Shown in pieces: positions 28,819-38,303 of a stretch of DNA of 64,000 nucleotides. The notes beneath the pieces were generated by a model. That model saw nothing but the letters and a program-made list of their open reading frames with translations, made no database searches and was not told the origin of the DNA. The stretch covers positions 3,968,001 to 4,032,000 of the forward strand of contig NZ_AP022612.1 of NCBI RefSeq assembly GCF_010729895.1. The letters run 5' to 3'. A program made the translations under genes and the position numbers. Source of the DNA: Mycolicibacterium confluentis (lineage in GTDB: Bacteria; Actinomycetota; Actinomycetes; Mycobacteriales; Mycobacteriaceae). How positions within the stretch are numbered: position 1 is the stretch's first letter; every line of letters begins with the position of its first letter.

Positions 28819-31170
28819 TCAGTCCTTCGCGAACGCCGCGGCGAGTTCTCGTTCGACGTCGACATACGGCGTGCCCGAGATGTCCACGACGGCCTTGGCG
28901 ATGCTGCCGCCGGTGAAGGCGAAGGGCGCCTGATAGCGGGGCGACACCGACTGCCCGGCGTTGCGGCCGACCGAGACACCCGCGCCCGCAAGACCGAAGC
29001 TCGCGGGATGCGTGCGCACGCCCTCGAGGGTGGCCACCACCGCGTCGTCGACGTGCAGCGTCACGGTGCCCAGTGGCGTGTGGCTGCCCTCGACCGTGCC
29101 GGTCCGCTCCCACCGCACACCGAAGATGTGCGCGCCGACGGTCACCGCGTTCTCGGCGGCGACGGCCTGCTCGTCCTCACCCATGAAGTTGTAGATGTAG
29201 TGCAGCGCGCCGTCGGCGACATAGAGGACGTGCCCACCGTGCCCGCCGCCGTGCTTGTAGAGCACACCGCTGGCGTTCTCATCGGTCACCGTGGTCTCCA
29301 CCAGCACCGAGAAGGACTGGCCCCGAAGTTCGACGGCCGCGCCGAGGCCGACGGGGGCCGAGTGGGGGTAATAGGTGAAACTCGTGCGCGCCCCGGTCAG
29401 GTACGGCCGCTCCCGGGAGTACACCTCGAACATGTTGAGGTCAGCCAACGGCAGTCCGTTGTACTTGTGGGCCTCGCTGAACCACAGCGCCTTGAGCTCC
29501 TCGACTCGCTCGGGGTACTGCTCGGCCAGATCGTGGCACTGGCTGCGGTCGGATTCGATGTGGAACAGCTCCCAGCGGTCCTCGTCGAAATGACCCCAGC
29601 CCGACGGTGTCGCGGCGTGCAGCGTGTTGGCGAACCAGCCCCGGTGCCAGATGCCCCGAGTGCCGAGCATCGCGTAGAACTGCGTCTCCTTGCCCGTCGG
29701 CAGGTCCGGATTCCTCAGTGCCGCAGCAAAACTCGTGCCATCGAGGGGTTTCTGCGGCACCCCGCGAACGGTTGCGGGCGGCGTGATGTCCAGCAGTTCG
29801 AAGACGGTGGGCGTGACGTCGGCGACGTTGATGTAGTTGTCACGCACCTCACCGTGCGCCGCGATTCCGGACGGCCACGAGATGATCGCGGGGTCGGCGA
29901 TGCCGCCCTCGTGGGACGCGTAGCGCTTGAACAGTTTGTAGGGCGTGTTGAACGCCATCGCCCAACCGGTCGGATAGTGGTTGTAGGTCTGCGGGCTGCC
30001 GAGTTGGTCCTTGAGGTGCAGGCTCTCCTCGATCGTGTCGACGTAGCCGTTGAAGAACTTGACCTCGTTGACCGACCCGTTGGGTCCACCCTCGCCGGAT
30101 GCCCCGTTGTCAGAGATCACCACGATCAGGGTGTTGTCCAACTGACCGGACTCCTCGAGGTAGTCGAGGACGCGCCCGATCTGGGCGTCGGTGTAGCTGA
30201 GGAACCCGGCGAACACCTCGGCCATCCGGCAGAACAGGCCCTTCTCCTGCTCGTCGAGCGAGTCCCACGGACGCACGGTGTCCTGCAGCGGCCATGGCTC
30301 GCCGTTGGGTCCCGTCAGGTCGGCGTAGGGGTTGATCGGCGACAGTTCGGTGTCGGGCGGGACGATGCCCAGCCTCTTCTGGTTCTCCAGGACGATCTCG
30401 CGGTATCGCTCGTAGCCCATGTCGAAGCGGCCCGCGTATTTGTCGGCCCATTCGGCGGCCACGTGATGCGGAGCGTGCCCGGCACCCGGACACACATAGC
30501 TGAACCACGGCTTGTCGGGGGCGATGACCTTGGCGTCGCGGATGAACTCGATCGTGCGGTCCGCGAGGTCCTTCGAGAGGTGGTAACCCTCTTCGGGCGT
30601 CGCCGGCGGTTCCACCGGATGGTTGTCGTGGACGAGGTCCGGATACCACTGGTCGGTCTCCCCGCCCAGGAATCCGTAGAACCGTTCGAACCCGCGGTTC
30701 AGTGGCCAATGTCGTTTCGTGGCGGCAAGATTCGCCTCCTCGAGCGGAGTCAGGTGCCACTTGCCGACGCAGTAGGTGTTCCAGCCGCGCTCGGCGAGCA
30801 CCTCCGGCAGCAGGGCCGTCTCGAACGGGATCCGACCGCTGCTGTTCGGGAAGCCGTCGGTGAACTCCTCGATGGTCGCCATCCCGACCGTGGTCGCGTT
30901 GCGTCCCGTCAGCAACGACGCCCGAGTCGGCGAGCACAGCGCCGTGGTGTGGAACTGCGACAACCGGACGCCGCGATCAGCGATGCGGCTCATGTTGGGC
31001 ATGTCGACCAGGCCGCCGAAGCAGTCCCAAGTCGCGATTCCGATGTCGTCCCACACCAGATACAGCACGTTCGGCGCGTTCTCGGGTGCGGTCGGCGCCG
31101 CGAACGGCCCCCAGTCCGGCTCGGAGTCGCGGATGTCGAGCTCGATCCGCCCCTTGAATTCGGTGGCCAT
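28819..31170 (-). CDS. atsA: Arylsulfatase AtsA
   Basis: Type I sulfatase hydrolysing aryl or other sulfate esters, 783 residues. Metal-binding Asp41-Asp42 (WDDIGIATWD) and the activation motif Cys79-Ser-Pro-Thr-Arg (LCSPTRASLLTGRN) show a formylglycine-dependent enzyme. GKWHLTP and SDNGASGEGG are further active-site segments. No signal peptide. The sequence follows M. tuberculosis AtsA (Rv0711) over its length, including an extra C-terminal jelly-roll-like region from about residue 590. Start taken as ATG 31170 (MATEFKGRIELDIRD) by that alignment; the Shine-Dalgarno is weak. 80 nt separate it from the GT-C gene upstream. Confidence 0.94.
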   Translation of the reverse strand: MATEFKGRIELDIRDSEPDWGPFAAPTAPENAPNVLYLVWDDIGIATWDCFGGLVDMPNMSRIADRGVRLSQFHTTALCSPTRASLLTGRNATTVGMATIEEFTDGFPNSSGRIPFETALLPEVLAERGWNTYCVGKWHLTPLEEANLAATKRHWPLNRGFERFYGFLGGETDQWYPDLVHDNHPVEPPATPEEGYHLSKDLADRTIEFIRDAKVIAPDKPWFSYVCPGAGHAPHHVAAEWADKYAGRFDMGYERYREIVLENQKRLGIVPPDTELSPINPYADLTGPNGEPWPLQDTVRPWDSLDEQEKGLFCRMAEVFAGFLSYTDAQIGRVLDYLEESGQLDNTLIVVISDNGASGEGGPNGSVNEVKFFNGYVDTIEESLHLKDQLGSPQTYNHYPTGWAMAFNTPYKLFKRYASHEGGIADPAIISWPSGIAAHGEVRDNYINVADVTPTVFELLDITPPATVRGVPQKPLDGTSFAAALRNPDLPTGKETQFYAMLGTRGIWHRGWFANTLHAATPSGWGHFDEDRWELFHIESDRSQCHDLAEQYPERVEELKALWFSEAHKYNGLPLADLNMFEVYSRERPYLTGARTSFTYYPHSAPVGLGAAVELRGQSFSVLVETTVTDENASGVLYKHGGGHGGHVLYVADGALHYIYNFMGEDEQAVAAENAVTVGAHIFGVRWERTGTVEGSHTPLGTVTLHVDDAVVATLEGVRTHPASFGLAGAGVSVGRNAGQSVSPRYQAPFAFTGGSIAKAVVDISGTPYVDVERELAAAFAKD

Positions 31171-31250
31171 GGTGAAATCCGATCTGTTGGTCACATCCGC
31201 GGCGACACTACACCGAGAAATGGCTGCTGAACGGCTGATTTGAGCCCGTG

Positions 31251-32936
31251 TCACGCACCCTTTGCGGACGGTTCGGTGACCCGGTAGAGCCGCCAGTCCG
31301 GCTGGCTGTCGCCGTCGTTGGGGATCTCGAGTTCCAAGGTCGCGATGTCCGCCCCGGTGTCATACAGCGTGGGGTACCGCTGGTTCAGCGCATCCGAGAC
31401 GCCGCGGCCCGTCGGCGGCACCGCCAGCAGGTACTTGATGCCACCCTCCGAGGGGTTGTTGAGCAGAGCGGTGAAGTCCGGATCAGACGGCACCACAAAG
31501 GTCTTCGGCCGCTCCGATGCGGCCACCACCGCAAAGCCGTACACGGTGTCCGTGATCACCGAACTCTCCGGCAGATCCAATGCGTCCAAGTACTCGGCGA
31601 CCCGGCGTTCGGTCGAGAACGTCGCCGCGATGCGACGTTCCACGGCCTTGCGGGGGCTCGTGTCGTCTGGGTCCGGATTGAGCACGGTGCTCAGCGCGTA
31701 CTCCTGGGGCGCGTACGCAGGCAGGGTCATCCCCTTCACTGTCACCGGAATGCCGGCCGCCAGCACCAGCGCGACCGCCGCGTAAGAGATCCGCGTGGGC
31801 CGGGTGCTGGCTGTGTCGGAGGGGGCGGGCGCGTGGCGGCCGGGCCTCTTGGGCTTCGCGAACTGCCCGTCCGGCACGGCCAACAGAGCCATGGTCGCCG
31901 CGAATGGGATGGCGACGATATAGAACCGCAGGAACCCGAACGTCGCGCCGCTGGCGTAGGTGTAGGCCTGGAACGCCAGCACCGCGCCGTACATCAGCAG
32001 CGGCACCACGAGCATCGCCGCATGCGGCCTGCGCCAGCGCAGGAAACCGGCCCATGCCGCGATCGGCAGCAGTGTCGGCGCCAGCAGTGTGATGCACACC
32101 GCCGCGAAGGACAGGCCCGCCCCGAAGCTGGCCACCGGCTCACCGCCGGACTGCTCCAGGATCGCCTTGTTCCCGTACTGCGAACTGAACTGCGCGAAGG
32201 CGTCGCCCGTGATCAGCCAACTGGCCGCGGCCCACCCGAGGAACGCCATGAATCCGGGCAGGCTGACCAGAAGGACATCGAGGATCGCGCGGCGTAACCG
32301 AGGCGCCCGACGGGCCCTCATGAATGTCGTGACGCCGACGATCAGACCCGCCGCCGCGACGGTGCCGACCGCGTCGTAACGGGTCAGGTATGCCAGCCCC
32401 ATCGCGACCCCGCCCGCAGCCACCAGGTGATGCACGTCGTCGTCGACGACCCACAGGATCAGCCGCCGCACCGACCACACCAGGAAGAAGAGGAACGGCG
32501 CCTCGCTCATGCCGTTGGAGCCGTAGAACACGATCATCGGGTTGAGCGCGAACAGCGCGGTGATCGCGCACGAGTAACCGCGGGGCAGACCGCGATCACT
32601 GCCGGTCGAGAAGATCTGGATGACCGTCCCCGCCATGAACAGTGCCGACATGACCGAGCCGGCGAGCGCGTAGGCGGTGAGCTCGGGCCAGACCGGGGCC
32701 AGCACGATCACCGGCAACTGCACCAGCGCCGTCAGCGGGGTGAAGATGAACCCGATGGCGGCCAGGTGCGGATCGCGGCTGTAGAGCACACTTTCGGCGG
32801 ACTGCACACGCGAGAGCGCATCGCCGATGATGAAGCCCTGCTTCACCTGCAGCCACCAGCCGACGCCCAGATAGAGCAGAAGCGTCGCGACGAAAATGAT
32901 CTGTTTGCAGCGCCGGTCGCTCACTGCTCCCGTCAC
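31251..32936 (-). CDS. Multi-spanning GT-C-type glycosyltransferase
   Basis: A 561-residue integral membrane protein with about ten hydrophobic segments in the first 400 residues. Asp39 in the first outer loop (FIIGDALSRVQSAE) is where GT-C enzymes keep a catalytic Asp; NPMIVFYGSNGMSEAPFLFFLVW and YLTRYDAVGTVAA also recall polyprenyl-phosphate-sugar-dependent transferases (ArnT/PMT type). The last ~150 residues are a soluble outer domain. It starts at the GTG overlapping the GT2 stop (GTGA). Fourth gene of the surface operon; it could add sugars to the polymer or to an anchor. Family call from architecture, moderate certainty. Confidence 0.78.
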   Translation of the reverse strand: MTGAVSDRRCKQIIFVATLLLYLGVGWWLQVKQGFIIGDALSRVQSAESVLYSRDPHLAAIGFIFTPLTALVQLPVIVLAPVWPELTAYALAGSVMSALFMAGTVIQIFSTGSDRGLPRGYSCAITALFALNPMIVFYGSNGMSEAPFLFFLVWSVRRLILWVVDDDVHHLVAAGGVAMGLAYLTRYDAVGTVAAAGLIVGVTTFMRARRAPRLRRAILDVLLVSLPGFMAFLGWAAASWLITGDAFAQFSSQYGNKAILEQSGGEPVASFGAGLSFAAVCITLLAPTLLPIAAWAGFLRWRRPHAAMLVVPLLMYGAVLAFQAYTYASGATFGFLRFYIVAIPFAATMALLAVPDGQFAKPKRPGRHAPAPSDTASTRPTRISYAAVALVLAAGIPVTVKGMTLPAYAPQEYALSTVLNPDPDDTSPRKAVERRIAATFSTERRVAEYLDALDLPESSVITDTVYGFAVVAASERPKTFVVPSDPDFTALLNNPSEGGIKYLLAVPPTGRGVSDALNQRYPTLYDTGADIATLELEIPNDGDSQPDWRLYRVTEPSAKGA

Positions 32937-34429
32937 GTGGTCGGCTCCGCATCGGAGTCGGCCTCGTCGGGCCGGGCCGACAGACCGTGGAACGTCTTCT
33001 CCCAGTACGACGGGTTGCGGATGAGCTGATAGCACCCCTTGGCGGCCGCGACGCTCATCATCAACCAGAACGCGGGGACTGTGAGAACGGGGATCAGCAG
33101 GTCCGACCGATCGTCCTCGCGCAGCGCGATCATGTTCATGAACAGCGTGGCCGCGTTGCCAAGCACCAGCGCGATCAGCGCGGGAAAGTAGATGTACCAG
33201 GGGAACACCGCCCCGACCAGCGCCGGCTGCCCAAGGAACCACAGCACGGTGATGAGCCAGAACAGCAGGTTCAGCACCGCGATGATGGGAGTGCCCGCCA
33301 GCACGAGGGTGAAGCGCAGGAAGCTGCGCGGACCCAGGATGCGGAACAGCTTCACCGGTTGTCGTACATGCACGAGCCAGGTCTGCAGATACCCCTTGTA
33401 CCACCGCGACCGCTGCCGAACCCAGTTGATGGGATCGCTGTTGGCCTCCTCGAGCGTCGCCGAGTCGATGACCGCGGTGTGGTAGCCGGACGCGTCGATG
33501 CGCAGGCCCAGATCGGCATCCTCGGTCACGTTGAACGGATCCCAGGCACCGATCTCGTCGAGGATGTCGCGTCGCAGGTGGTTCGACGTGCCGCCCAGGG
33601 GAATCGGCGAGGTGCTGCGCATCATGCCGGGCAGCAGGTATCCGAACCACAGCCCGTACTCGGCCGTGAACCAACCGGTCAGCAGGTTCTGGTTGCCGTT
33701 GTGGTACTCGAGTTTGGCCTGGACACAGGCGATCTTGTCGGGCAGTCCGCGGAAGGCCGCCGCCACCCGGCGCAGCTGCAACGGTTCGGGCAGATCCTCG
33801 GCGTCGTAGATCGTGACGATGTCGCCGGTGGCGAAGTGCAGGCCGTAGTTGCACGCCTTGGGTTTGGTCCTGGGCTCGGCCGGCGGCACCAGCACGATCG
33901 TGATGACATCGGACTCACCGCATCTGCGGGCCGCGGCGATCGTGACGTCGTCGTCGGCCTCCAGCAGGAGCAGCACCTGGAGCTTGTCGCGGGGGTACTC
34001 CAGCTGGGACATCGCGCCGATGAGGTCCCCGACCACCTCGGGTTCGCCGTAGGCGGGCACCAGGATCGTGTAACGCGGCAGTTCGCCGTCGGGAATCGCG
34101 CGGGCCTGCTCGTCGGAGATCGTGATCGGCCGCGACGCCAGGCCCGTCTTGAAGATCAGCACGCGGTCCACCATCGTCAGCACGTAGCCGAAGGTGCACA
34201 GGCCGATCAGCGCCACGGCCGTACCCATCGGCTGCCAGACCGCGAACGCGACGACGATCACCAGCAGCGTGATCAGGACGGGCTTCTGCCAGCCGTACAC
34301 CGCCTGTGATGCGGACTGCAGCGGATGCTCCTCGCGCAGACCGTTGATCGCCCGGTCGAGCGCGTACTGCTTCTCCTCGTCGGTCGCGGTCTCCACAATC
34401 CGCGGCCAGTCCCGCGCGGTCGTGGTCAC
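32933..34429 (-). CDS. Processive family 2 glycosyltransferase, cellulose-synthase-like
   Basis: A 498-residue membrane glycosyltransferase. Two N-terminal spans (about 45-85), a cytosolic GT2 domain, and about four C-terminal spans. The BcsA-type catalytic set is visible: EADDD after LQVLLLL, the second acidic motif YDAEDLPEP, TEDADLGLRI (general base Asp), and Q-R-S-R-W (NWVRQRSRWYKGYLQTW), the QxxRW motif of processive synthases. There is no PilZ domain, so no c-di-GMP control is evident. Starts at the GTG overlapping the upstream stop (GTGA). With the BcsB-like gene in the same operon, it probably makes and exports a polysaccharide. Sugar unknown. Confidence 0.88.
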   Translation of the reverse strand: MTTTARDWPRIVETATDEEKQYALDRAINGLREEHPLQSASQAVYGWQKPVLITLLVIVVAFAVWQPMGTAVALIGLCTFGYVLTMVDRVLIFKTGLASRPITISDEQARAIPDGELPRYTILVPAYGEPEVVGDLIGAMSQLEYPRDKLQVLLLLEADDDVTIAAARRCGESDVITIVLVPPAEPRTKPKACNYGLHFATGDIVTIYDAEDLPEPLQLRRVAAAFRGLPDKIACVQAKLEYHNGNQNLLTGWFTAEYGLWFGYLLPGMMRSTSPIPLGGTSNHLRRDILDEIGAWDPFNVTEDADLGLRIDASGYHTAVIDSATLEEANSDPINWVRQRSRWYKGYLQTWLVHVRQPVKLFRILGPRSFLRFTLVLAGTPIIAVLNLLFWLITVLWFLGQPALVGAVFPWYIYFPALIALVLGNAATLFMNMIALREDDRSDLLIPVLTVPAFWLMMSVAAAKGCYQLIRNPSYWEKTFHGLSARPDEADSDAEPTT

Positions 34430-35940
34430 GGGTTGACCCCCAGCGGCTCGAGCTGGGCCCGCACGAGCGCGTTCGCGAACTCGATCAGCAGCCGTTCGTC
34501 CTTGAACTCGGGAGCGGAGTCGAGCAGCGCCGCGTTGCCGCGGAACAGCACCGTGAACATCGAGTTGAGGGTGGCCGTGAGGTCCCCGGTGGGTTCGGGG
34601 AAGTGTGCGGTGTCCTCGTGGTTGTCCACCGCGATGATCAGGATGCGTTGCGAGGTACTGCCATTGGTCCAGGTCCACTGGATGCGATCCCAGGTCACCA
34701 GCAGGCTGTCGTCAACGACGGTGAACATGCCGGCCTGCACGCCGAACGACAGGCTGACCGGCTTGATCTCACTGGTCCGGGCGCCCTCGAGGTGATAGAG
34801 CATGCGGGCCGGGTAGATGCTCAGGGAGTATGGACGATTCGTCGTCACCGTGTCGACCATGAGGGTTCGGGGACGGGCGAATTTGTCGAACCGGGGGTCC
34901 CCGGAGTCTGCGACGACCTTCTGCCTGACCAGGGTCGCGTCACCGCCGTACAACCGGTTCACCCAGTCGTAGGTCTCGATGTCCGCGACATGCCAGCCGC
35001 TCGGCATGGTCAACGGGGCGTCGAAGCGCAGGTTGTCCACATGCAGTGGGGGCGCAAATCCCACCTGGGGCAGGCGCACCAGCGAAAGCCCGACCGCGAT
35101 CACGAGCACGAGCGGGACCGCCGACCAGATCTGTTTGGCGGCAACCGGTTCGACCTTGCGGTCGAGCAGCCGTTTGGGCTCGCCGCGGCGGGAGAACAAG
35201 AACATGCCCGTGCCCACCACGCAGATCGCCACGAGCGGCGGCACGTACTGATAGACCACGAGCGGTGCGTTCGGCGTGAAGACCGCCATACCGCCGAGGA
35301 TCGTGAGACCCAGCGCCCAACCCCCGAGCGAGCCGTACACCCCGCGGGTGAAGTCCCGCCCGACCGCGATGCCGATCGCCACACCGGCGATGATCATGGT
35401 TCCCACGCCCCCGGCGATCTTGTTGCCGCCCAGGAGGAACACCATGATGTAGTACGGCAGCGGGAAGATCATGAACAGCAGGCACCACACCCAGGCGAAC
35501 CGGATCATCGGCCGCAGGCCGAACAGCGCGACGCTGGCGCTGGCGACGAACATCCACAGGGCCACCAGGTCCAGCCTGAGCAGGTTGTAGTACAGCGAGT
35601 AACGCTGCAGCAGCACGGCATGAATCAGAAGCGAGAACACCAACCCCATGACCCCGACGATCACGTCGGTCTGCCGATCATGGATCGGCAGTTCGGTGCG
35701 GTGGCGCCGCGCCAGCCCGATCGCGGCCAGGACGCCGGCCACCGGGACCAGGAAGACGTAACCACCCATGCCGCCGCCGGTCACGGTCTGCACCGAACGA
35801 ATCAGGGTGTCGTGGAACGCGAAGACGGTCAGGATCGCGATGTAGGCCCACCGCAGGATCAACCGGTACACCGGGTGCAGGCGCTCTTGCCACGGTGGCC
35901 GTCGCACCTGCGGCGGCGGTGTGCTCGCAGGGGCCGTCAC
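34426..35940 (-). CDS. Exosortase/EpsI-like multi-spanning membrane protein
   Basis: A 504-residue protein: about nine membrane spans (residues ~28-290) then an outer domain of ~210 residues. The first spans recall the exosortase family (GGYVFLVPVAGVLAAIGLARRH, FGLRPMIRFAWVWCLLFMIFPLP), and the outer domain recalls EpsI (MPSGWHVADIETYDWVNRLYGGD). However the CSGxR catalytic motif of exosortases is missing: Cys153 and Cys240 are in other contexts. So this is either a catalytically dead or remodelled exosortase relative, or a separate family. In exopolysaccharide loci EpsI/exosortase pairs occur beside polymer synthases, which fits its neighbours. GTG start one base after the BcsB-like stop. 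Confidence 0.65.
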   Translation of the reverse strand: MTAPASTPPPQVRRPPWQERLHPVYRLILRWAYIAILTVFAFHDTLIRSVQTVTGGGMGGYVFLVPVAGVLAAIGLARRHRTELPIHDRQTDVIVGVMGLVFSLLIHAVLLQRYSLYYNLLRLDLVALWMFVASASVALFGLRPMIRFAWVWCLLFMIFPLPYYIMVFLLGGNKIAGGVGTMIIAGVAIGIAVGRDFTRGVYGSLGGWALGLTILGGMAVFTPNAPLVVYQYVPPLVAICVVGTGMFLFSRRGEPKRLLDRKVEPVAAKQIWSAVPLVLVIAVGLSLVRLPQVGFAPPLHVDNLRFDAPLTMPSGWHVADIETYDWVNRLYGGDATLVRQKVVADSGDPRFDKFARPRTLMVDTVTTNRPYSLSIYPARMLYHLEGARTSEIKPVSLSFGVQAGMFTVVDDSLLVTWDRIQWTWTNGSTSQRILIIAVDNHEDTAHFPEPTGDLTATLNSMFTVLFRGNAALLDSAPEFKDERLLIEFANALVRAQLEPLGVNP

Positions 35941-35941
35941 G

Positions 35942-37873
35942 TCACTCGCTCGAAGGCCTGCGCCGCACCAACCAGACCAGGCCGACGACCGCCGCACCGG
36001 CAGCGAGACCGCCCGCGGCCAACCAGGGCAACCGCGACGACGACGTGGCTGTCGCATCCGTGTCGGGCTCCAGCCCGCCGGGCACCGTCACGGGCGCGCG
36101 GCCAGGCACCGACACCAGACCGACCCCATTGAGCGCCGACCAACGCCGCGCATCGGCGTCGAGCCACGTGAGCAGGTTGTCGAGTTCGTCGACCGCACCG
36201 CCGTTGGAAGTCGCCACCAGAATCGAGCGGCCATCGTGCACGACGGTCTGCAGGGACCCGAACCGCACCTTGGGATCGAGCGTGAGGGTGGTCGGCTCAC
36301 CCTCGTCGTCGAGCACGTCGAGGGTCATCGGGACCGTGTCGGGCGCCTTGATCGCAAGCTGGATCTGCGGGTGGCTCCACCCTTCGGCGTCGATGAGCAC
36401 GGCGGGGTGCGGCGACGAGACCGCCTCCTCGATCGGCGTCACCTCGATGCCGAAGGGCAGCGCGGACACCCGCTGCAGCCCCGTCAGGATCTTCACCGCG
36501 CGGATCAGGTCGGCCAGTGGATCACGGTCCATGTCGAGGCCGACCTGCAGTCGCGGCATCATCGCCTGCGGCAGCGACTGAAACCCTTTGACCACCGGCG
36601 GGTGCGCCGCCTTGCTCGTCACCACGGTCGAGCCGTCGATGGTCAGCGTGACCGGCTGGAACTCACCGCATCGTCCGGTGTCTCCGGAGATGTTCACCTG
36701 CACCGCCAGCGTGGTGTTGCGCTGCAGCAGACGGTCCGGGACCTCCACCCAGCGGTCGATCGTGCCGCTGGGCGCGACGGGCCACCGCGCGACGATCTCG
36801 CCACCCACCGACGCCACGACCTGTCCGCCGATCGTGGTGGGCAGCGGCGTATAGGAACCGATCAGATGGACCCGAACCCCCTTGACCGAGCGGCCCATCC
36901 GGGTCTGGTCGAGATTGACACCCACCTGAGGGTTCAGCGCGATGGCGTTGACACCGGGCTGTCCCAGGTCACGGATGGTGGTCTCGTCCCTTGCCAGTTG
37001 GGGCACCGACTTCAGCGGCCCCGCGACGGCCTTGGAGCTCAAGGCGAATCGGCCGACCCCACTGGTCAGCAGGCGGGTCTGGTTGGTCAACTCCGAAGGC
37101 GGGCCCGAGATCAACAGCGCGGGAAGGGGTTCGGGACCGACCAGTGAGAGGCCGGCGTCGGGCCCCTCGGACACCACGATGTGGCGCTCCAGCGGCGCCG
37201 CCCCCTCACCGGGGACGGGCGCCGGGCCAGCCAGCGACTCGACCACCACTTGCGGGTGCTGAGCCCCGTAGTGCGCCGTGACGGCCGTCGCCAGCCTCAC
37301 CACCGCATCCGCTTCGGCCCGCGACGGTGATTCGCCGACTTGGATGACCAGCCGCCGCAACACGGGCGGCAGGAAGTCAGCAACCGTCGTCGGCGAGGCT
37401 TCGGCGCCGACGAACGTGATAGCTGAATTCGCAAGGCGCAGCGGATTGGACGGATCCAGGCAGTAACCCTCGACCGGCAGGAGGTAGCTGCGCACCAGCA
37501 CGCTGGCCGAATTGTCCTGCACTTCAACGCCGTTGAGCGGGATGGCCAGCGGGCCGCCCTCGGGTGGAAGTTCGACGCTGGTCAGCAGTCGATTGTCCTG
37601 GCTGACCGTGACACTAGCGCTGCGCACGTTCACCGGCAGCTGCACGGTGACGTTCAGCGACTCCGGTGTCATCCCTTGGGGCACAGGGATGTTCAGCATC
37701 ACGGTGCCGTTCTGACCGTAGAACAGCAGATCCGGTTCGGAGCCCAGCTCAGGCAACGGCAGCGTCGGCGAACCGAACAGCAGCGGATCGGCCGAGGCGG
37801 TCGGTGCCAGGGGAAGCGCCAGAAGGCCGAGTGCCACAAGAAGTCTGACAAGGGAGTTGCGGCAGCGGTTCAT
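35942..37873 (-). CDS. BcsB-like exported polysaccharide-synthase subunit
   Basis: A 643-residue protein with a signal peptide (about residues 1-28, ending TASADP), a large beta-rich extracytoplasmic region and one C-terminal membrane span (about 612-636) followed by RRR. The pattern resembles BcsB, the cellulose synthase subunit that guides the nascent chain: VMLNIPVPQGMTPESLNVTV, SVELPPEGGPLAIPL, YCLDPSNPLRLANSAITFVG. First gene of the operon, with a palindromic promoter just upstream. The BcsB assignment is from architecture and context, since sequence similarity is faint. Confidence 0.72.
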   Translation of the reverse strand: MNRCRNSLVRLLVALGLLALPLAPTASADPLLFGSPTLPLPELGSEPDLLFYGQNGTVMLNIPVPQGMTPESLNVTVQLPVNVRSASVTVSQDNRLLTSVELPPEGGPLAIPLNGVEVQDNSASVLVRSYLLPVEGYCLDPSNPLRLANSAITFVGAEASPTTVADFLPPVLRRLVIQVGESPSRAEADAVVRLATAVTAHYGAQHPQVVVESLAGPAPVPGEGAAPLERHIVVSEGPDAGLSLVGPEPLPALLISGPPSELTNQTRLLTSGVGRFALSSKAVAGPLKSVPQLARDETTIRDLGQPGVNAIALNPQVGVNLDQTRMGRSVKGVRVHLIGSYTPLPTTIGGQVVASVGGEIVARWPVAPSGTIDRWVEVPDRLLQRNTTLAVQVNISGDTGRCGEFQPVTLTIDGSTVVTSKAAHPPVVKGFQSLPQAMMPRLQVGLDMDRDPLADLIRAVKILTGLQRVSALPFGIEVTPIEEAVSSPHPAVLIDAEGWSHPQIQLAIKAPDTVPMTLDVLDDEGEPTTLTLDPKVRFGSLQTVVHDGRSILVATSNGGAVDELDNLLTWLDADARRWSALNGVGLVSVPGRAPVTVPGGLEPDTDATATSSSRLPWLAAGGLAAGAAVVGLVWLVRRRPSSE

Positions 37874-37895
37874 CGGACAACAGCCTAGATCATCC

Positions 37896-37913
37896 CGGCA
37901 AATCTATTTGCCG
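37896..37913 (-). promoter_or_regulatory. 18-bp perfect palindrome over the -10 of the surface-polysaccharide operon
   Basis: CGGCAAATCTATTTGCCG is a perfect inverted repeat (8-bp arms, 2-nt centre), 22 nt before the BcsB-like start. On the minus strand it contains TAGATT, a good TANNNT -10 element, so a bound repressor would block initiation. The regulator is not known. Confidence 0.65.
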
Positions 37914-37944
37914 AAGACGACAAACACATTTCCGCCCGACAGCA

Positions 37945-37980
37945 AAGAGCCCCCGACCTCAGTGAGGTTCAGGGGCTCTT
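37945..37980 (-). terminator. Hairpin terminator after rpsQ
   Basis: AAGAGCCCC (37945-37953) pairs with GGGGCTCTT (37972-37980); inside it CCTC and GAGG pair with a small bulge. It lies 26 nt past the rpsQ stop and ends the rpsJ-rpsQ transcript, so the surface operon downstream is transcriptionally separate. Confidence 0.85.
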
Positions 37981-38006
37981 CGATGAAGCGTAAGCGGCGA
38001 GGCCGA

Positions 38007-38303
38007 TTACTTGGCCTTCTCCAGGATCTCGACCAGGCGCCAACGCTTGGTCGCCGACAGGGGGCGGGTCTCCATGAGCGACACGCGGTCGCCGATGCCG
38101 GCTTCCCCGTTCTCGTCGTGGGCCTTGACCTTCTTGGTGGTCCGGATGATCTTGCCGTACAGCGGATGCATCTTGCGGTCTTCGAGCTCGACCACGATGG
38201 TCTTCTGCATCTTGTCGCTCACGACGTAGCCGATAGCGGTCTTACGACGGCCACGAGGCTGCTCGGTGGGCGCGGTGTACTTCGGCCCCTTGGTATCTGC
38301 CAT
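38007..38303 (-). CDS. rpsQ: 30S ribosomal protein S17
   Basis: A 98-residue S17: [40 protein letters not shown]. Its ATG shares a base with the rpmC stop (TAATG). Last gene of the S10-side block. Confidence 0.98.

Follow-up and report, generated by a model that had tools for sequence, protein, structure and literature searches.

The window analysed here is a stretch of 64,000 nucleotides from the genome of Mycolicibacterium confluentis (NZ_AP022612.1, positions 3,968,001 to 4,032,000), and our subject is a block of four genes in it, A to D, that lies between the ribosomal protein gene rpsQ on the upstream side (38007..38303) and an atsA-like gene on the downstream side (28819..31173, its label taken from the original prediction made for this DNA and its start approximate). 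The four genes and both landmarks are read from the minus strand. Gene A (35942..37873, 643 aa) encodes a BcsB-like secreted protein; gene B (34426..35940, 504 aa) an exosortase/EpsI-like membrane protein that lacks the Cys/Arg/His core; gene C (32933..34429, 498 aa) a membrane glycosyltransferase of family 2 (GT2), processive in type and BcsA-like; and gene D (31251..32936, 561 aa) a membrane glycosyltransferase of the GT-C class, PMT_2-like. A single nucleotide separates A from B, and both B and C and C and D overlap by 4 nucleotides. The original prediction had described four overlapping or nearly overlapping minus-strand genes between rpsQ and atsA, and they are indeed present there.

The four proteins and the missing core of B

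Gene C matches PF13641 in Pfam at an expectation value (E) of 1.1e-29 and holds the complete motif set of processive GT2 enzymes (DxD, TED and QxxRW), here a DxD-like DAED (33794..33805), a TED (33518..33526) and a QRSRW (33401..33415), all on the minus strand and each invariant in 22 of 22 homologs. Against solved structures, the profile of C finds the cellulose synthase BcsA best (2.9e-16), and the single sequence places a short GT2 (6yv7) first, with BcsA behind. Cellulose synthase is also the best model in the NCBIfam scan, where CelA reaches 67.5 bits against a cut-off of 699.1, and no match to a PilZ domain was found in C. On the models of exosortase-associated glycosyltransferases, TIGR03111 (XrtG) and NF053846 (XrtP), it scores weakly, with 26 bits against cut-offs of 364 and 520.

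The neighbours of C are recognised through their homologs. Protein A has, by hydropathy, a hydrophobic N-terminus and one C-terminal membrane segment, of signal and anchor type; a BcsB protein would combine these with two sandwich plus flavodoxin-like units, and an internal repeat in A is weak (17% probability). Each half of A holds one invariant Cys, C138 and C402. The BcsB family PF03170 is matched by 6 of 22 A homologs at E ≤ 1 (best 2.7e-6), and among ten A proteins scanned for it three reach E ≤ 0.01, two of these ten lying above the curated cut-off. A PF03170 search of the whole own genome gave no match, nor did the A profile find one among solved structures. PMT_2 (PF13231) is matched by 15 of 22 D homologs at E ≤ 1 (best 6.7e-10), and the D profile has one doubtful match to a solved structure (E 0.025). 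An invariant residue of D, Asp39 (32820..32822, minus strand), lies between hydrophobic segments 1 and 2. Once homologs are used, the four families named in the original prediction (BcsB, GT2, GT-C and exosortase) find support.

Protein B shows eight hydrophobic segments by hydropathy, matching the approximately eight membrane helices expected of exosortases, and then some 215 residues of a C-terminal domain that is EpsI-like (34429..35043, minus strand, approximate bounds). At the level of sequence profiles, B is shown to be homologous to exosortase-EpsI fusions over both of its halves: the profile of the B family (A5) matches that of five core-bearing fusions (A7) with 99.9% probability, at E 2.5e-33 and over 462 columns, and the fusion of locus L072, taken singly, matches the window protein at 1.8e-10 in its N-terminal part and at 7.1e-6 in its C-terminal part. 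The fusions of L072, L075 and L125 pass both TIGR04178 and PF09721. Among 27 B homologs, six match XrtD weakly (best 0.0092) and one matches PF09721 at 0.0045; a search of solved structures with the B profile gave no match. A lone B gene on plasmid pA of Rhodococcus pyridinivorans (L093:8980-10449), annotated as an archaeosortase/exosortase family protein, exceeds the PF09721 cut-off (28.9 against 25.7 bits) in its N-terminal half only, over profile positions 2-142 of 254.

The six core-bearing fusions (L072, L075, L124, L125, L126 and L053) all carry the Cys of an AC/SC-x-G motif, the Arg of N..R and a His, the catalytic residues of exosortases. Our core alignment comprises 22 rows: these six active forms, 14 rows of type I or II (13 from Mycobacteriaceae plus L073) and two intermediate forms (L074 and L127); type I is the form of cassette found in the window and type II a paralogous form described below. 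Every active row (6 of 6) has the three residues, and all 14 type I/II rows lack them. The B family has no invariant Cys, a result independent of the uncertain middle of the alignment, and the CYxFHGY-type EpsI signature of the active relatives is likewise absent from B. With the core gone, B cannot work as a Cys exosortase, and it is probably the scaffold of a glycan synthase.

The two intermediate forms depart from both patterns. In L074 the core and its Arg are kept, Cys has become Leu and His has become Gly, and there is no EpsI-like domain. In L127 (9308-11155), beside C and D, a DPM1-like glycosyltransferase and a GtrA domain are fused to the N-terminal half of an exosortase relative, a part without Cys or Arg, with a His in the column that looks like chance, and whose exosortase identity rests on an E 1.4e-7 match to the L072 fusion. 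Neither form matches PF09721 at E ≤ 0.01. These different lesions (the core lost in types I and II, two substitutions in L074, an N-terminal half in L127) may point to catalysis having been lost more than once. In a tree of the GT2 proteins, Mycobacteriaceae type I, type II, and the active plus intermediate rows separate, and L073 falls between type I and the rest. We tried to root it with a CelA-like outgroup, whose branch of 9.3 changes per column makes the root unreliable and leaves the order of loss undecided by the tree.

Between hydrophobic segments 2 and 3, B carries the motif ELPIHDRQTD (35665..35694, minus strand), whose D88 and D92 are invariant across the A5 alignment and which probably lies on the cytoplasmic side if the N-terminus of B is inside. 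Most of this motif is common to the core-bearing fusions L072, L124, L075 and L126 and to L074 and L127; it is degenerate in L125 and L053, and only the two Asp of the motif remain in the type II copies, which lie beside C and D. Judged from these alignments, a contact between the motif and C may exist and would fit, but the distribution pattern is not clean. Three cassettes (L034, L132 and L134) carry a B gene on each side of A, the two having diverged from each other, which suggests pairing or specialisation of B.

Core-bearing relatives of B occur in company of their own. L072 and L124 come from two genomes of a single genus, which belongs to another family of the order, and both genomes are rich in VPE-type tails; in each locus a core-bearing exosortase-EpsI fusion precedes genes related to C and D. 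In L075 (a second genus) and L126 the stretch ends at or near the fusion gene, and D relatives lie on other contigs of both genomes; in L125 a different glycosyltransferase adjoins the fusion. Around the exosortase operon of L072 (65-2050 and 9531-14780) we noticed secreted proteins with VPE-type C-terminal tails, one of them a hydrolase of the CocE/NonD type. A model of such tails (A6, 42 columns, from nine VPE-type tails of L072, L075, L124, L125 and L053) was run on 19 chosen genomes, with at most 150 candidates scored per genome (150 in 16 of the 19). At E ≤ 0.01 it gave 21 matches in G484, 18 in G579, two in G449 and one each in G569 and G383, all five being genomes with a core-bearing exosortase. 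Since 4, 2, 1, 1 and 1 of these matches, respectively, are the training tails themselves, the independent sorting signal rests mainly on G484 and G579, of one genus. One match (E 0.006) was also found in G509. There were none in the own genome (G000) and 10 other Mycobacteriaceae, for VPE-type tails and with other tail types not searched, and none in the two genomes with intermediate forms of B. The suggestion made in the original prediction that the exosortase-like protein may anchor or release the product or its carrier is, as regards exosortase chemistry, not supported by these results: the core is absent, and the tail model used detected no sorting signals in the genome.

Conservation, orphan A genes and the rpsQ site

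In 21 of 21 loci that were selected for carrying B, from 15 genera (Mycobacterium and 14 others), A, B, C and D stand side by side, which makes chance linkage not credible. In 19 of these loci the order is A-B-C-D on one strand; the exceptions are L034, from Mycobacterium, with B-A-B'-C-D, and L042, from another genus, where C-B is divergent from A-D. Of 301 genomes examined in the family, 114 have relatives of P0002, spread over 21 of its 31 genera, and a scan of genome contigs gave a single named relative. Among the matches listed, B is carried by Mycolicibacterium phlei, fluoranthenivorans, cosmeticum, rutilum, fallax, wolinskyi, mageritense, tusciae, porcinum and pulveris. Across the order, a B match was obtained in 19 of 298 genomes, of which six belong to families other than that of the window; one of these six, G509 (L073), holds a full A-B-C-D block with a core-less B.

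The own genome holds a second, diverged and paralogous cassette, of type II, with the order B-C-A-D (L068, 9437-16009), an order shared by 7 of 7 type II loci read (L068, L069, L070, L071, L077, L172 and L175). By eye, the copy in L068 adjoins pta- and ackA-like genes. Within the genus, B (profile A5) was detected in 51 of 198 genomes; split by E-value, 37 of them have type I and 14 have type II alone. The number is a lower bound, since the type II B genes of G807 and G224 escaped detection. Gene A (profile A2, draw with the same settings) was detected in 119 of the 198, among them all 51 B-positive genomes. We found no description of this cassette in titles or abstracts of open PMC papers, subscription papers not being covered.

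This wider spread of A led us to its neighbours. We read 15 stretches around A matches from genomes without a type I B or with additional A copies: two proved to be full type II cassettes and 13 have A but none of the other three genes. In L166 (653-11673) the orphan A is accompanied, by Pfam, by a dTDP-sugar epimerase, a WbaP-type sugar transferase, a Wzx-type flippase, a GT4 glycosyltransferase, and Wzz-type and Wzy-type proteins; L165, L170 and L174 hold A in Wzx/Wzy-type polysaccharide clusters that resemble L166 when judged by eye. A WbaP-type transferase in L163 and a polysaccharide deacetylase in L168 also lie near A (Pfam). The presence of orphan A genes in Wzx/Wzy clusters is the best support, from gene company, for a role of A in polysaccharide biology, and it speaks for the envelope-polysaccharide role that the original prediction had assigned to the block. 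In L163, L164, L167 and L168, A adjoins metG-, tatD-, rpfB- and ksgA-like genes (by eye, and not all four in each stretch), a neighbourhood that would correspond to Rv1006-Rv1010 of M. tuberculosis. Rv1006 is counted among putative outer membrane proteins (PMC8006519).

The rpsQ site appears to be a long-standing home of the cassette. We studied 21 type I loci of the genus (the window, L031, L032-L036 and L129-L142; L128 repeats L031), with the gene orders A-B-C-D in 13, B-A-C-D in four, B-A-B'-C-D in three and A-A'-B-C-D in one. As many as 20 lie within about 5 kb of rpsQ, the exception being L139 at about 55 kb, and 14 of them also have atsA on the far side (over 70% identity, same strand). 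A reading of 1.5 kb to each side of rpsQ in 30 genus loci (30 of 59 genomes with a match) showed the adjacent gene to be A, B or D in 10, atsA in seven and neither in 13, and in two of these last (L140 and L141) the cassette stands a few kb further on. The arrangement with atsA straight after rpsQ is the one that the original prediction had given for M. tuberculosis, which would then lack the block. The stretches of 15 loci from other genera contain no rpsQ. In three genomes (L144, L145 and L146) A stands alone beside rpsQ, with B, C and D absent, and these lone genes are probably remnants of the cassette. They are followed by atsA, with about 7.8 kb of other genes in between in the case of L145.

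The original prediction had left open an insertion here or a loss elsewhere. The closeness of 20 of the 21 type I loci to rpsQ together with the A-only sites disfavours a recent insertion into the ribosomal cluster, so that an old resident with losses is favoured. The site therefore looks old in the genus, one early arrival followed by losses being equally possible. A plasmid origin was also considered and set aside, the single plasmid record found holding B without any of its three partner genes beside it.

Two sequence features lie between rpsQ and A. Downstream of rpsQ there is a terminator-like hairpin with a short T run (37940..37985, minus strand), which is strong (-32.9 kcal/mol, z -6.0) and has a comparable GC hairpin in at least 7 of 9 other rpsQ-cassette spacers, their sequences being judged by eye. 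Such a strong hairpin after rpsQ probably insulates the cassette from ribosomal transcription. The terminator of the original prediction is a real hairpin with counterparts elsewhere, and the automated terminator scan of the window does not report it. Closer to A stands a perfect palindrome, CGGCAAAT-AG-ATTTGCCG (37896..37913, no strand), a possible regulator site. It had been taken for a palindromic promoter; the palindrome is confirmed and the promoter is not, as a scan found no sigma-70-like site there and the nine other rpsQ-cassette spacers compared lack the palindrome.

Proposed function of the cassette and comparison with known systems

Taken together, we give a probability of about 0.6 to the block being a conserved four-gene cassette that makes and moves an envelope glycan, most likely a polysaccharide, with B as a core-less scaffold of exosortase fold. 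From its motifs, C would build the chain in the cytoplasm and pass it through the membrane. On the outer face D could add sugars from a polyprenyl-phosphate-sugar donor, a proposal drawn from the polyprenyl-sugar synthase of PpgS type (below its cut-off) that follows B-C-D in L074 and from the DPM1-like domain fused to the B remnant of L127. A, membrane-tethered and BcsB-like, would guide the chain, as its homology and gene company suggest, and B would couple synthesis inside to its own EpsI-like domain and to A outside. A GH5 cellulase-like gene near B-C-D in L074 (PF00150, 1.5e-8) gives a faint hint of a beta-glycan. With such a product, the surface glycans of these bacteria, which are noted for their envelopes, would be joined by an undescribed one.

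The core-bearing form that accompanies C and D may be the older one, in which glycan and protein would have been coupled, and the cassette hints at a common machine for protein anchoring and sugar building. To our knowledge, the acceptor compound of protein attachment by exosortases has not been identified. A 2020 paper calls the attachment partner an unidentified compound (PMC7468200). It is tempting to propose, as a tentative idea with a modest chance of being right, that exosortases of this group attach their cleaved proteins to the glycan of C and D as acceptor, and that Mycobacteriaceae dropped the protease centre and kept the glycan machine together with the exosortase fold as a subunit of the glycan synthase. 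If this were true, the exosortase fold would have a second role as a glycan-synthase subunit. Related glycosyltransferases lie beside a core-bearing exosortase in some bacteria and beside a core-less one in others, and the sugar part of the system could thus be studied alone.

Several observations weigh against the proposal of a glycan cassette built around a scaffold. The window proteins A and D match no Pfam family, and B has no Pfam match either and finds, among curated exosortase models, only XrtD at E 0.32; the family names of these three therefore rest on sets of homologs. The orphan A of L166 has no Pfam match, and so no BcsB match. Because the core is missing, the alignment of B with the fusions is uncertain in its middle part, and the live exosortase form accompanies C and D in only two loci, both from the same genus. 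The lone A genes at rpsQ, the orphan A stretches and genome G029, which has no D anywhere, imply that A can serve without the rest. Disruption of EpsH in Methylobacillus is reported to have left the exopolysaccharide unaffected (PMC1569441), so that exosortases need not belong to glycan synthesis. Finally, a GT2 of the C type may make a short glycolipid instead of a polymer.

This last point opens the best placed of the alternatives, in which the cassette makes a glycolipid or a glycoprotein modification and no polymer: C would load a polyprenyl or lipid carrier, D would finish the product, and A and B would present it to acceptor proteins. A GT2 beside an exosortase is a named theme, on whose XrtG- and XrtP-associated models C does score, if weakly; D resembles PMT_2, core-bearing relatives occur with sorting-signal proteins, and the short GT2 6yv7 precedes BcsA when the single C sequence is compared with solved structures. 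However, both the C profile and the NCBIfam scan place cellulose synthase best, A has BcsB homology, and an orphan copy of A lies in a cluster with Wzy and Wzz; we consider this reading unlikely.

We regard as quite improbable that B is a working enzyme with another active site, for instance D88/D92 or polar residues of the C-terminal domain, that releases or attaches something. B does keep many invariant polar residues in the absence of an invariant Cys, which a pure scaffold need not do; but its most conserved N-terminal motif is common to core-bearing exosortases, whose nucleophile is taken to be the Cys, this motif is probably cytoplasmic, and the search with the tail model used gave no sorting signals. 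It is very improbable that an exosortase system was lost and that these genes are its decaying remains, now without function: patchy presence (a B match in 51 of 198 genus genomes), A-only sites and a stop inside a match in 7 of the 114 genomes with a match (not checked singly; the frame is open in L024) would suit it, but the motifs of C are invariant across 15 genera, the four-gene linkage is kept and so is a paralogous second cassette.

The cassette has to be contrasted with four known systems. Mycobacterial Wzx/Wzy exopolysaccharide clusters hold orphan relatives of A, but no homolog of B, C or D is found in those stretches. The exosortase-associated glycosyltransferases (TIGR03111/XrtG and NF053846/XrtP) also show a GT2 gene beside an exosortase-type gene; C, however, falls far below their cut-offs and is linked to a BcsB-like A, a GT-C D and a core-less exosortase relative. 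Compared with the cellulose synthase BcsA-BcsB, C has no PilZ match, counts 498 aa and stays far below the CelA cut-off, and B and D are extra; yet C shares the DxD-like, TED and QxxRW motifs and matches BcsA, and A is weakly homologous to BcsB. With respect to the exosortase/EpsH-EpsI proteins themselves (PF09721, TIGR04178 and fusions such as XrtD), B differs in lacking the Cys/Arg/His core and the CYxFHGY-type signature, and its genome in showing no sorting signals with the VPE-type model, but B is homologous to them in both halves, and related operons in one other genus hold true members of the family.

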